From assembly GCA_029982245.1 (NCBI GenBank), contig JARRBX010000003.1, positions 1-35,527 on the forward strand: a DNA stretch of 35,527 nucleotides. The letters are read 5' to 3'. Source of the DNA: Candidatus Atribacteria bacterium. Its GTDB lineage: Bacteria > Atribacterota > Atribacteria > Atribacterales > Thermatribacteraceae. Both the position numbers and the translations under genes were made by a program. This document shows positions 24,645 through 29,294 of this stretch, in pieces (position 1 is the stretch's first letter; each line of letters starts with the position of its first letter). The notes beneath the pieces were generated by a model. That model was not told where the DNA came from. It ran no database searches and saw only the letters and a program-made list of their open reading frames with translations.

Positions 24645-24683
24645 AAAAGAAAGGCCTCTTCCGCATTGGAAGAGGCCTTTCTT
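24645..24683 (-). terminator. Intrinsic terminator of the rhodanese gene
   Basis: A 16-bp perfect stem (24647-24662 with 24668-24683) with a 5-nt loop, followed on the minus strand by a T-rich tail. It is 20 nt after the rhodanese stop and upstream of the acyltransferase promoter. Confidence 0.9.
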
Positions 24684-24702: not shown

Positions 24703-25155
24703 TTATTTCTCAAGAGGTGAGCCTGTTTTCACCCAACCAGGGACGCCGCCTTCAACTATCCAGGCTTCATAACCCAGCATCTGAAGAACAGAAACCGCAA
24801 ATGCCGAATTGGTATCCAGCGAACACACCACTGCGATAGTTTTATCCTTGGGAATTTGATTTAGATTATCAACCAGGGTCGGAAGTGGCACATTCACCGA
24901 ACCAGGAATATGGCCGTTTTTGTACATGAAATCCGGCCGTACGTCCAGGATAAACAGAGAATCTCCCTTTTCTTCAATCAAAGTTTTGAGCTCTGCTACC
25001 GAGATAAGCCAGAGCTTGTTCTGGGGCACCGACTTCAGAAAGGAATCTGCAGCCTGAGTGATCTCTTGCGCACCCTGAGCCAGACCCGAAAACACAAAAA
25101 GTAGCATCAAAGAAACTGCCAGCACTACACCCGAAAAATTTGTTTTGCGGAACAT
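24703..25155 (-). CDS. Exported rhodanese-like sulfurtransferase
   Basis: A 150-residue single-domain rhodanese carrying sulfane sulfur on an active-site cysteine. A signal peptide covers residues 1-29 (basic start, hydrophobic core, LAQGA end), so it acts outside the cytoplasmic membrane. The CH2-A-like DVRPDFMYKNGHIPGSVNVPL segment and nucleophile Cys111 in VVCSLDTNSAF are present. The ATG at 25155 follows GGGAGG at 8-nt spacing. A 16-bp palindrome (25187-25202) identical in half-sites to one upstream of the neighbouring molybdopterin gene lies 32 nt before the start. A sulfur donor or redox role with that enzyme is inference. Confidence 0.9.
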   Translation of the reverse strand: MFRKTNFSGVVLAVSLMLLFVFSGLAQGAQEITQAADSFLKSVPQNKLWLISVAELKTLIEEKGDSLFILDVRPDFMYKNGHIPGSVNVPLPTLVDNLNQIPKDKTIAVVCSLDTNSAFAVSVLQMLGYEAWIVEGGVPGWVKTGSPLEK

Positions 25156-25186
25156 AACTTCCGCCTCCCTTTTCTTTGATAAACTC

Positions 25187-25202
25187 TAAAACATTTGTTT
25201 TA
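25187..25202. promoter_or_regulatory. Palindromic operator candidate upstream of rhodanese gene
   Basis: TAAAACA-TT-TGTTTTA, a perfect palindrome with a 2-nt centre, 32 nt before the rhodanese start. The same half-sites occur at 25923-25938. Confidence 0.55.
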
Positions 25203-25224
25203 AAGTTTTATTCCCGTCTCTTAA

Positions 25225-25893
25225 TTACTGCTCAAACATGGGCCTGTTCAAATCACCAGAGTTGCTGTAGCCTCTGCTTTCCCAGTAACCTCGGTAATTG
25301 GCATTATCCGAAAGCTCAACCCGCTCCAACCAGCGAATCCATTTATAGCCCCATTTACTTTCTGCCACCAGCTGGAAAGGAAAACCCTGGGCAGGAGGAA
25401 GGGTTATTCCGTTAATTTTATCAGCTATGATGATATCTCGCTCCAGAATGTAGTCGAGCGGAAGAGAGGTGGTATACCCATCCACGGCATAAAAAATAAC
25501 CGTATTTGCTTCTGGCAAAACCCCTACTTTCTCAAAAAGAGCAGAAAGAGGAATACCTTCCCAAAGAGCCTTAACCTGCCACCCTTCAACACAGAAAAGA
25601 GTCACCAGTTTCTTCTTTCGAGGAAAAGAGCGAAGCTCCTCGAGAGAAAAGCTCAACGGTTTTGCAACCAGGCCATCTACAACCAGGCGATAGGTTGCAG
25701 GGTCGACCTTCTGAACTCCTCGAATTGAGTTCTCACGAAAGTCAGAAACAGAACCCAGCTTTTCTCCCTGATACTCACGAATTTCCACCTCGTCAGTGGA
25801 TAAGTTTTGTTCACCGAAACCAGCAACCACGAATACCAGCACAAAAAACAAAGATAGCGCCAAAACCGTGAATGCCCGGCTTAATTTCTGCAT
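25225..25893 (-). CDS. Exported sulfite-oxidase-fold molybdopterin protein
   Basis: A 222-residue protein with an N-terminal signal peptide (about 1-27, ending VVAGFGEQ). The mature part is the oxidoreductase molybdopterin-binding domain of the sulfite oxidase/YedY (MsrP) group: LVVDGLVAKPLSFSLEELRSFP, the Mo-ligating Cys101 in TLFCVEGW, and the downstream AVDGYTTSLPLDYIL and GFPFQLVAESKWGYKWIRWL segments. It lacks a heme domain and a dimerisation domain, so electrons must pass to a partner not visible here. The ATG at 25893 follows AAAGGAG. Substrate unknown. It is followed by a rhodanese gene 69 nt downstream. Confidence 0.88.
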   Translation of the reverse strand: MQKLSRAFTVLALSLFFVLVFVVAGFGEQNLSTDEVEIREYQGEKLGSVSDFRENSIRGVQKVDPATYRLVVDGLVAKPLSFSLEELRSFPRKKKLVTLFCVEGWQVKALWEGIPLSALFEKVGVLPEANTVIFYAVDGYTTSLPLDYILERDIIIADKINGITLPPAQGFPFQLVAESKWGYKWIRWLERVELSDNANYRGYWESRGYSNSGDLNRPMFEQ

Positions 25894-25922
25894 CAAAATC
25901 ACTCCTTTCCAAAGAGGAACAG

Positions 25923-25938
25923 TAAAACAAGTGTTTTA
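25923..25938. promoter_or_regulatory. Palindromic operator candidate upstream of molybdopterin gene
   Basis: TAAAACA-AG-TGTTTTA, 30 nt before the start. Same half-sites and nearly the same distance as the rhodanese operator at 25187-25202. No regulator gene is adjacent. Confidence 0.55.
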
Positions 25939-25995
25939 ATCTAAAACCCGGTGAGGGAACAGTTATTCCGCAAGTTGCAGGAAGCTGGGAAAAGC

Positions 25996-26235
25996 TTAAA
26001 GCATAACTTCTTCAAAAGCGACCTTCAGGCTTTCATCAATGTAGCGATAAAAATCGGGGATATCCTCTTGAGACAATCCATACCACTGAAAGTGAGTTCG
26101 CCAGGTGAGTTCAAAATATTTCTTCCCGCAATGGTGATGAAAAAGAGCAGGCTTAAATCGAGCTACCAAAGCTCGTTCACGGAAAGCCTTTCCTTCAATC
26201 GGCTTTCCACAAAAAGCACAGATTTTTTCCTCCAT
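25996..26235 (-). CDS. Small CxxC (zinc-finger-like) protein of unknown function
   Basis: A 79-residue protein with an N-terminal CAFC knuckle (Cys6, Cys9) and a HHHC cluster (33-36), which together could bind one zinc or iron ion. The remainder is acidic and helical. I do not recognise a family. The ATG at 26235 has GCGAGG at 7-nt spacing, and the gene starts 19 nt after the UPF0280 stop, so it is the fourth gene of the T-box-controlled homocysteine operon. A role in sulfur or metal handling there is inference from position only. Confidence 0.7.
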   Translation of the reverse strand: MEEKICAFCGKPIEGKAFRERALVARFKPALFHHHCGKKYFELTWRTHFQWYGLSQEDIPDFYRYIDESLKVAFEEVML

Positions 26236-26254: not shown

Positions 26255-26977
26255 TCACAGAGCAACCAGTTCTATTTTACCCCTTACCCCCATAATCTCT
26301 CCAAAGGCCACAAACACTCCCTGAACACCGTAAGCATTCTCGCTAATTCGCAAAACCTTCTCTACATCCTCTTTAGCTTTTACCAGATTGGCCAGGCTGG
26401 TTGCCCAGGCATCGGCAAGTGCCGCAGAGTCGCTGATTACCACCACAGCATCAGCCTTACCAAGGCTCAAGGAAGGACCCACTTTGCCTGAAGAGGTCGC
26501 CACTCCCCATCTGCCGGGTGGAAGCTTGATTCCCAGTTTAAAGCTGAAGGGTGAATCCTCTCCAGCATAGATTGCCACTACTCTCGAACAAGAAGAAACA
26601 ATAAGCAAATCCCCACCATTTTCCACTATAAATTCCTTAACCTCTTCCTTAACGCCCTCGAAAACCCGCTCATTGATGGCTCCGGCCACTGCAGCCATGG
26701 GGCCTACCCGGGCTTTTTCGGAAGCCCAGGCCATGAGCCGGCAAATGGGAGGAGCAAATGCAGGCACCCGAAGCGGTTCCAGAGAGTTCAGAAATTCAGG
26801 GTGGTAGCGCAAATAGGCTTTCAGGTTCCTGCGCTCCCGCTCCAGGAGCTCTCTAACCTTTTCCTGTACATCGACATTCGCCATGACAAAAAGATCGCTC
26901 TCTTCTATTTTCACCTCAAAAGAGACCAGTTCGGGTACCTGCATCAGTTGGCGATACCATCTTTTCACATACTCCAC
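26255..26977 (-). CDS. UPF0280 family protein (COG2122), homocysteine/persulfide pathway
   Basis: A protein of about 240 residues. The family is recognisable from YVKRWYRQL, APPICRLMAWASEKARVGPMAAVAGAINE and the DAVVVISDSAALADAWATSLAN region, which resembles ApbE-type folds. In methanogens and sulfate reducers this family is linked with DUF39 and NIL-ferredoxin proteins in making homocysteine from aspartate semialdehyde with sulfide or persulfide. The exact start is uncertain: GTG at 26977 is the first in-frame start after the upstream stop, while GGAGG at 26986-26990 is somewhat far. It sits third in the operon. Confidence 0.85.
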   Translation of the reverse strand: MEYVKRWYRQLMQVPELVSFEVKIEESDLFVMANVDVQEKVRELLERERRNLKAYLRYHPEFLNSLEPLRVPAFAPPICRLMAWASEKARVGPMAAVAGAINERVFEGVKEEVKEFIVENGGDLLIVSSCSRVVAIYAGEDSPFSFKLGIKLPPGRWGVATSSGKVGPSLSLGKADAVVVISDSAALADAWATSLANLVKAKEDVEKVLRISENAYGVQGVFVAFGEIMGVRGKIELVAL

Positions 26978-26979
26978 GT

Positions 26980-27390
26980 TCAGATCAAAGCCTCCATAGC
27001 AAAGGTAGGACAAGCCATAATGCACATTTCACAGGCAATGCATCTGGTACCGTCGAAACGCACCTCAAACGAGGGCTTCTCTATAAACAGCGCTGAAGTG
27101 GGGCAAACACCCACACAGGCTCCACAGTTGATACAGCGTTCATCGTTTTTGCGAATATCCTGGCTGAGTGATTCAATCAGTACTCCCTGCTCACGCAGGT
27201 ACTGCAAGCCTTTTTCCTGATTTGCACCTTCACCAATGATTTCCATAACCATAATCCCTTCACGATGCGGTGAGATAGAAGCCCTGAGAATGTTGAAAGC
27301 CAGTCCAAAACGCAATGCCAAATCACAAACTATGGGTCTATCCGCAACCTGGACCGGAAAATGCAGAACTATTTTTCGAGAAACGGTCAT
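26980..27390 (-). CDS. NIL domain-ferredoxin protein of homocysteine synthesis
   Basis: A 136-residue two-part protein. Residues 1-78 form a NIL domain (ACT-like, also found in methionine ABC importers). Residues 84-130 carry two 4Fe-4S clusters, with cysteines 86, 89, 92, 96 and 117, 120, 123, 127. In methanogens the homologue acts with DUF39 in reductive sulfur insertion to homocysteine. The ATG at 27390 follows AGGGGTGAG and lies 5 nt after the DUF39 stop, so the two are tightly coupled. Likely role: supply of low-potential electrons to DUF39. Confidence 0.9.
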   Translation of the reverse strand: MTVSRKIVLHFPVQVADRPIVCDLALRFGLAFNILRASISPHREGIMVMEIIGEGANQEKGLQYLREQGVLIESLSQDIRKNDERCINCGACVGVCPTSALFIEKPSFEVRFDGTRCIACEMCIMACPTFAMEALI

Positions 27391-27395
27391 CGTAC

Positions 27396-28631
27396 TCACC
27401 CCTTCAGAGTTCCTGCGTAGTTTTCAACCGGACGCTCTTTAAGGTTTTTAAAGCGCACTCCAGATTCCACTCCGGGAAGATTGACTACCGGACGGGTCAA
27501 TTCAAAGTTGCCTTCTTGAATCCAGCGCTTGAGAGTCTGGGCAATTTCTCTTGCTCGCTGGTAACTGGAAAGTGGAAAAGTGGGAATTTCTTTACCCTTG
27601 ATTACTATTTTACCACTGCGTAGCTGAGCATAGCTGACATACCCGAGAACCTCGCCTGTTCCTTCCGGGTACGCAGAGCTGTAGTCAACCACCGGAGCCA
27701 AGATTTCTTCGTCACTTACCGAGCAGTAATAAAGGGTTTCTTCATCAAGAATGGGAATGGGAACTCCAACTCCCACTGCAAGGGAACAGCCATAACCCCT
27801 GACGCTCACCCCCCAGAGCCACTGTGCACTCATCCCTTTCAGGTCGCCAATCAGGGCTAGTGTCCCAGCACCACCTTTAGGAACACCTCTTTCGTTGCGT
27901 TCCACCGAAGGGTTATGCTGAGTGCCCTGCCAGGCCACATAACCAACTCCTCCCCCCAAAAAGATCCTGGTTCCTACCCCAATGACCCGATAAAAGGGGT
28001 CATTCAAAAGAGGGCTTAACTGGCCTGCCGAAGAATAACCGGCATTCCCAAGACGAGGTAAAAGGATACCCATGTAGGTATAAATAGTCTTATCGGAGAG
28101 GTTCACTGCCACATTGTAATTCTGGTATGCATTGCGAGGGTTGAAAAGATAAGCTTCATTCAGGTCCTTAAGGTTAATCCAGGTAACCAGCTTTTTGCGT
28201 GGATAACAGTCCGTACCATAGGCATAGGCTTCAAGCAGAACGTCTTTTCCGGCAACCAGGTCCTGAATGACATGCCCCCCACCATAGCGAAACTCGCCAG
28301 GGTGTACTTTGTTAAGGGGGTCATCCTTGGCAGGCTGGGTCGCTCCAATGTACATATCGACAGCAGCCAGACCGCAGTAGGCCATTACTCCATTCAGATA
28401 AGCTTCAGAAATCTTCATCCGGGGTTTGGTATGGCCAATATTCAAAAAAGCGCCTGAAGAACACATGATGCCAAAAGTGCCCGTGGTTACCACGTCAACC
28501 TGACGGGCTACCTCTTTCAGGCCTTTCTCTTTCACCATCTCAATTACTTCTTCAGCAGTGACCACTACTGCTTTACCTTCGCGGATTTTCTGGTTGATTT
28601 CCTCATAACTCCGCAACACTTCTTTCACCAT
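27396..28631 (-). CDS. Homocysteine biosynthesis protein (DUF39/HcyBio)
   Basis: A 411-residue member of the DUF39 (COG1900) family, shown in Methanosarcina to be needed for homocysteine formation from aspartate semialdehyde without O-acetyl- or O-succinylhomoserine. The N-terminal VTTGTFGIMCSSGAFLNIGH holds Cys57, and Cys142 lies in AYGTDCYPRKK. These two, plus Cys86, are candidates for the persulfide-carrying cysteines. No C-terminal CBS domains are present, so it is the short form. The ATG at 28631 has GGAGG at 6-nt spacing. First gene of the operon, under a methionine-specifying T-box. Confidence 0.92.
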   Translation of the reverse strand: MVKEVLRSYEEINQKIREGKAVVVTAEEVIEMVKEKGLKEVARQVDVVTTGTFGIMCSSGAFLNIGHTKPRMKISEAYLNGVMAYCGLAAVDMYIGATQPAKDDPLNKVHPGEFRYGGGHVIQDLVAGKDVLLEAYAYGTDCYPRKKLVTWINLKDLNEAYLFNPRNAYQNYNVAVNLSDKTIYTYMGILLPRLGNAGYSSAGQLSPLLNDPFYRVIGVGTRIFLGGGVGYVAWQGTQHNPSVERNERGVPKGGAGTLALIGDLKGMSAQWLWGVSVRGYGCSLAVGVGVPIPILDEETLYYCSVSDEEILAPVVDYSSAYPEGTGEVLGYVSYAQLRSGKIVIKGKEIPTFPLSSYQRAREIAQTLKRWIQEGNFELTRPVVNLPGVESGVRFKNLKERPVENYAGTLKG

Positions 28632-28946: not shown

Positions 28947-29048
28947 TAGGTTTCTCTACTTTTTCTATAAAAAAACTAATATTTTTAAACCCGAACACTT
29001 TTAAGTACACTATCTGAGTAAAAAACATTCCAAAAAGAGGTGGTAAGG

Positions 29049-29294
29049 ATGTACCGACTCTTGATACTCAAAATTGCGGCCCGCTCCCAGCAGGCTCCCC
29101 AGGTTCAGGAAATTCTCACCCAGTTCGGGTGCAACATAAAAACCCGTCTGGGGCTTCACGAAGCCTCTCCTGAATACTGTGCCGAAGACGGCCTGGTGAT
29201 ACTGGAGCTCACCGGAAAACAGGAAGAAATTGAGCAGCTTAAAGAGCGCTTACAAAAATTAGAAGGAGTTACTGCTCGCTACCTTGAAATATAA
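29049..29294 (+). CDS. Small ACT/NikR-C-like regulatory domain protein
   Basis: An 81-residue protein with the beta-alpha-beta-beta-alpha-beta pattern of small ACT-like proteins similar to Thermotoga TM1266 (annotated in databases as a putative iron-only hydrogenase system regulator). The features are YRLLILKIAAR, FGCNIKTRLGLHEASPEYCAEDGLVILELTG, and a C-terminal VTARYLEI. The ATG at 29049 has AGAGGTGG five nt upstream. No hydrogenase gene is adjacent, so the role is uncertain. It is transcribed away from the T-box promoter and converges on the Clp1-like gene with an 8-nt gap. Confidence 0.7.
   Translation: MYRLLILKIAARSQQAPQVQEILTQFGCNIKTRLGLHEASPEYCAEDGLVILELTGKQEEIEQLKERLQKLEGVTARYLEI

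Follow-up and report, generated by a model that had tools for sequence, protein, structure and literature searches.

The PrfA box of the CRP/FNR family, tTAACAnnTGTtAa, which is written tTAACanntGTtAa in a published description (PMC5359189), has a two-nucleotide (N2) centre and the inner half-site AACA/TGTT, and PrfA is described as an activator. The operator of the CopY/BlaI/MecI systems has been given as TACANNTGTA and refined to RNYKACANNTGTMRNY (PMC7253601). In the case of the CsoR-family sulfur regulators (CstR; TTHA1953 of Thermus, TACNNTACNNNNGTANNGTA), a repressor acting on palindromes controls sulfur-oxidation or rhodanese-type genes. We compared these systems with a pair of palindromes, TAAAACA-N2-TGTTTTA, located in a 35,527-nt stretch of a Candidatus Atribacteria contig, the whole of which is referred to here as the window. 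A literature search did not find this exact motif in any paper.

Both 16-bp palindromes are exact, lie 736 bp apart and are each located 5' of a minus-strand gene. Putative operator 1 (TAAAACA-TT-TGTTTTA; 25187..25202, unstranded) lies 31 nt from the ATG (25153-25155) of a rhodanese gene, and putative operator 2 (TAAAACA-AG-TGTTTTA; 25923..25938, unstranded) lies 29 nt from the ATG (25891-25893) of a gene encoding a sulfite-oxidase-fold protein. An earlier note on this DNA had described two perfect 16-bp palindromes with identical half-sites, and we found these exactly where it had placed them; the distances of 32 and 30 nt that it gave agree with ours only approximately. The ORF-finder start of the sulfite-oxidase-fold gene, GTG 25902, overlaps the Shine-Dalgarno sequence AGGAG and is an unlikely start because it lies inside this element, so that ATG 25893 is most likely the start of the gene. 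Operator 1 can be extended to 25181..25208 (unstranded), with arms of 13 bp containing one mismatch. Reading of the sequence also revealed an extra plus-strand half-site beside each operator, namely GTTTTA (25205..25210) beside operator 1 and TAAAAC (25942..25947) beside operator 2, both of which are suggestive only.

The centres of the sites are located about 38-40 nt before the start codons. Because the mRNA must include the Shine-Dalgarno sequence and transcription therefore starts upstream of it, the palindromes would fall between roughly -35 and +10, which is repressor territory and is incompatible with class II activation from -41.5. Neither site has a consensus sigma-70 promoter beside it, and the proposed promoter overlap is thus based on spacing. 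The reading that we favour, with a probability of about 0.68, is that one dimeric repressor acts on two operators lying over core promoters and controls a local two-gene regulon. A single dimeric transcriptional repressor would bind both palindromes and, at each gene, cover either the core promoter or the first bases of the transcript, thereby blocking RNA polymerase, and the sulfite-oxidase-fold and rhodanese genes would be switched together as two internally started units, both ending at a hairpin at 24647-24683. The repressor gene would be located elsewhere, with no closely matching site in its own upstream region. Protein binding, repression and the common regulator are what we infer from the arrangement of the sites.

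We compared the sequence of the sites with the known operators. At its centre, AACA-N2-TGTT, the motif is closer to the PrfA (CRP/FNR) box than to the CopY/BlaI box, with an incomplete match to either consensus. The sites contain the inner part, AACANNTGTT, of the PrfA consensus TTAACANNTGTTAA but not its outer TT/AA. It is possible, if unlikely, that they are bound by a PrfA-like regulator of the CRP/FNR family, either as a repressor, which would be a special case of the repressor reading, or as an activator working from an unusual place. The N2 centre and the AACA/TGTT inner half-site are the same as in the PrfA box (PMC5359189), whereas the outer bases differ (AAA(A) here and TTA(A) in the PrfA box, giving AAAACA vs TTAACA), and the position of the sites fits repression, with too little space for a class II activator.

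The CopY/BlaI/MecI systems have a ACANNTGT core, an N2 centre and two operators in common with the present pair. Recognition of the palindromes as cop/bla boxes by a CopY/BlaI-family repressor is nevertheless highly improbable: the shared ACANNTGT of the 10-bp core TACANNTGTA (PMC7253601) speaks for it, but the sites read AACANNTGTT in place of that core, and the refined operator RNYKACANNTGTMRNY demands K (G or T) before ACA, where TAAAACANNTGTTTTA has A. Moreover, a search with PF03965 (Penicillinase_R) yielded a single hit in each strain, and this protein is better read as being of the MarR type (PF12802, 4.1e-10; PF03965, 9.5e-7). In both strains, this MarR-like gene lies beside an ABC exporter and has a different, perfect 20-bp palindrome, TTATTTAGACGTCTAAATAA, just upstream (L048 1350-1369; L103 1362-1381), which is likely its autoregulatory operator. 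In the latter locus, overlapping operator-like repeats that form a 32-bp palindrome, TCAGCTAAACGTTTAGCTAAACGTTTAGCTGA, were also seen beside a LacI-type gene (L103 573-604).

The CsoR-family regulators resemble the proposed system in their mode of action and in their targets. Their operators are G/C-rich or composed of TAC/GTA repeats, unlike the sites described here, and neither a G/C run nor the TACNNTACNNNNGTANNGTA palindrome was present, the arms being A/T-rich. The single CsoR-family protein of a second genome of the same species (G041; 98% complete, 2.27 Mb) has a Cys...His-x3-Cys pattern like that of copper sensors, with no such site beside its gene. In the same genome, no close copy of the site was found within the surrounding 3 kb of the MarR/BlaI-like, CsoR, ArsR and single TetR genes; the best match near a candidate regulator, beside a MarR_2 hit (L112), had two mismatches and belongs to the background of near-matches. 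This genome also contains two near-identical copies, about 7 kb apart, of an ArsR-type gene with an ACR3-like transporter gene after it (L094 and L095; about 1669 and 1676 kb of G041:C1). In the window itself, no scanned protein matched a DNA-binding regulator family, in line with the view in the earlier note that no regulator gene is adjacent. A TM1266-like ORF (29040-29294) has a match named as a putative hydrogenase-system regulator; we take the ORF product to be ACT-like and not a helix-turn-helix protein.

To describe how rare the pair is, we counted matches in the window, in shuffled windows and in related genomes. The motif occurs in the whole window as two exact copies, with no others at 0, 1 or 2 mismatches, and among the 22 perfect inverted repeats of the window (arms of at least 7, gap 0-8) only these two have arms and spacing in common. 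A pair with identical arms appeared anywhere in 5/400 dinucleotide-preserving shuffles of the window and within 1 kb in 0/400, and about 0.73 Mb of real sequence contained one identical-armed pair within 1 kb, which was unrelated. The organism's own genome (1.44 Mb) has two exact and no one-mismatch sites, and 17 sites with up to two mismatches, compared with 18 for a reversed-motif control. The corresponding numbers for G041 were two exact sites, in the same places, one one-mismatch site, which lies inside a coding frame, and 26 sites with up to two mismatches (control, 28). The low probability of such a pair asserted in the earlier note is upheld by the absence of pairs within 1 kb in the shuffles and by the uniqueness of the motif in the genome; the genome scan that it had called for likewise showed that the motif is not frequent, no other promoter in either genome having an exact site.

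A wider regulon was considered and rejected, the near-matches being at control level and lying mostly within coding frames in both strains. When the motif was relaxed to AAACANNTGTTT, one further intergenic site appeared, before a Veg-like gene (G041:2594), and was judged to be due to chance. That the pair itself consists of chance palindromes without function is quite improbable. The spacers are A+T-rich, as this explanation would have it, and exact matches in 48 other genomes of the phylum were as many as control matches (3 vs 3) and lay in unrelated places, none near an orthologue; however, chance accounts poorly for two identical-armed palindromes within 1 kb, each about 30 nt before neighbouring starts, with no exact copy elsewhere in the genome and with arms that are kept in the second strain.

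The region is 95% identical between the two strains. Upstream of the rhodanese gene, the 69-nt spacer has eight differences, distributed as 0/14 in the arms, 2/2 in the centre (TT to AA in G041) and 6/53 at the other positions, a contrast between arms and the rest that is not significant in this comparison of two strains (Fisher test, P = 0.19). One of the flank changes, C to T at 25186, restores symmetry at the mismatched position of the extended palindrome, so that the site before the rhodanese gene in G041 is a perfect 30-bp palindrome with arms of 14 bp. The spacer containing operator 2 is identical over 102 nt in both strains and is hence uninformative on conservation. Because the pair is beyond chance, is restricted to two promoters and has kept its arms intact while the centre and flank drifted, the single common regulator suggested in the earlier note is the most economical reading, in the form of one shared DNA-binding protein. 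The conservation upstream of orthologues that the same note had looked for does not extend across families: there is no such palindrome in front of the one close orthologue from a different family of the phylum (~60% identity) or upstream of any of the more distant homologues, which are at loci of other lineages. Given this absence before orthologues of other families, the putative control system is lineage-specific and not an ancient conserved sulfur/molybdenum regulon.

It is improbable that the palindromes work at the RNA level, as hairpins in the mRNA leader, and not as DNA operators. The site before the rhodanese gene can fold into a hairpin of 12 bp (-10.6 kcal/mol, z -4.9), and the flank change in G041 turns a G-U pair into an A-U pair; the second site, however, gives only -2.3 kcal/mol, which shuffled sequences equal, and no U-run follows. 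What the two sites have in common is thus their sequence and not an RNA fold, which favours action at the DNA level and hence the repressor reading.

The gene pair stands at the end of a tightly packed run on the minus strand, in the order HcyBio (27396-28631), NIL-ferredoxin (26980-27399), UPF0280-type (26255-27025), a 79-aa ORF (25996-26235), the sulfite-oxidase-fold gene and the rhodanese gene, and the operators occupy the two longest gaps of this run (about 100 and 69 nt), which is where two internally started units would be expected to have them. Directly upstream of the pair, the HcyBio, NIL-ferredoxin and UPF0280 genes (26255-28631, minus strand) make up a homocysteine/sulfur-insertion cluster of the methanogen type. 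The rhodanese (24703..25155, minus strand; 150 aa; PF00581, 2.7e-18) is a single-domain, probably exported protein with a hydrophobic leader and a candidate active Cys in CSLDTNS; the complement of its Shine-Dalgarno sequence, CCTCCC, lies at 25164-25169. Its gene is followed by an inverted repeat forming a 16-bp hairpin and then a T-run (24647..24683, minus strand), a probable terminator closing the unit. No relative of this rhodanese was found in the viral contigs searched.

The sulfite-oxidase-fold protein (25225..25893, minus strand; 222 aa) has an Oxidored_molyb core (PF00174, 4.1e-35), and its PDB relatives are sulfite dehydrogenases. Cys101, in CVEGW, is invariant in an alignment of eight homologues. 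Homologues with 52-66% identity occur in Bipolaricaulota, Halanaerobiales, Methanomicrobiales, Diapherotrites and others, and the sulfite-oxidase-fold gene has a rhodanese gene close by at locus L032, from Bipolaricaulota. The leader is hydrophobic and has no twin-arginine motif; if the protein is exported in the folded state, this is uncommon among molybdenum-cofactor proteins. Some of the homologues from archaea and Peptococcaceae look lipoprotein-like. At two archaeal loci (L034 5709-5978 and L033 6649-6876), the sulfite-oxidase-fold gene is adjoined by a gene for a small multi-helix membrane protein that, by reading of its sequence, resembles a cytochrome-b-like (DUF4405-type) partner.

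Judging solely by what the two targets encode, the signal may be an extracytoplasmic sulfane-sulfur or redox stress. A more specific version of the repressor reading, which we regard as rather unlikely, is that this lineage has a dedicated repressor of its own, which recognises a new operator sequence, responds to sulfane sulfur or a related redox signal and has the exported sulfite-oxidase-fold protein and the exported rhodanese as its sole targets; if true, this would reveal an extracytoplasmic sulfur-handling pathway in a little-studied anaerobic lineage. The operator pair is very probably real and lineage-specific, with a very small regulon, and would then represent an ordinary kind of bacterial control. 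The small, probably exported sulfite-oxidase-fold family recurs in Bipolaricaulota, Halanaerobiales, Methanomicrobiales and small archaeal genomes, and the two identical operators provide a short, testable DNA bait for a regulator of this uncharacterised family.
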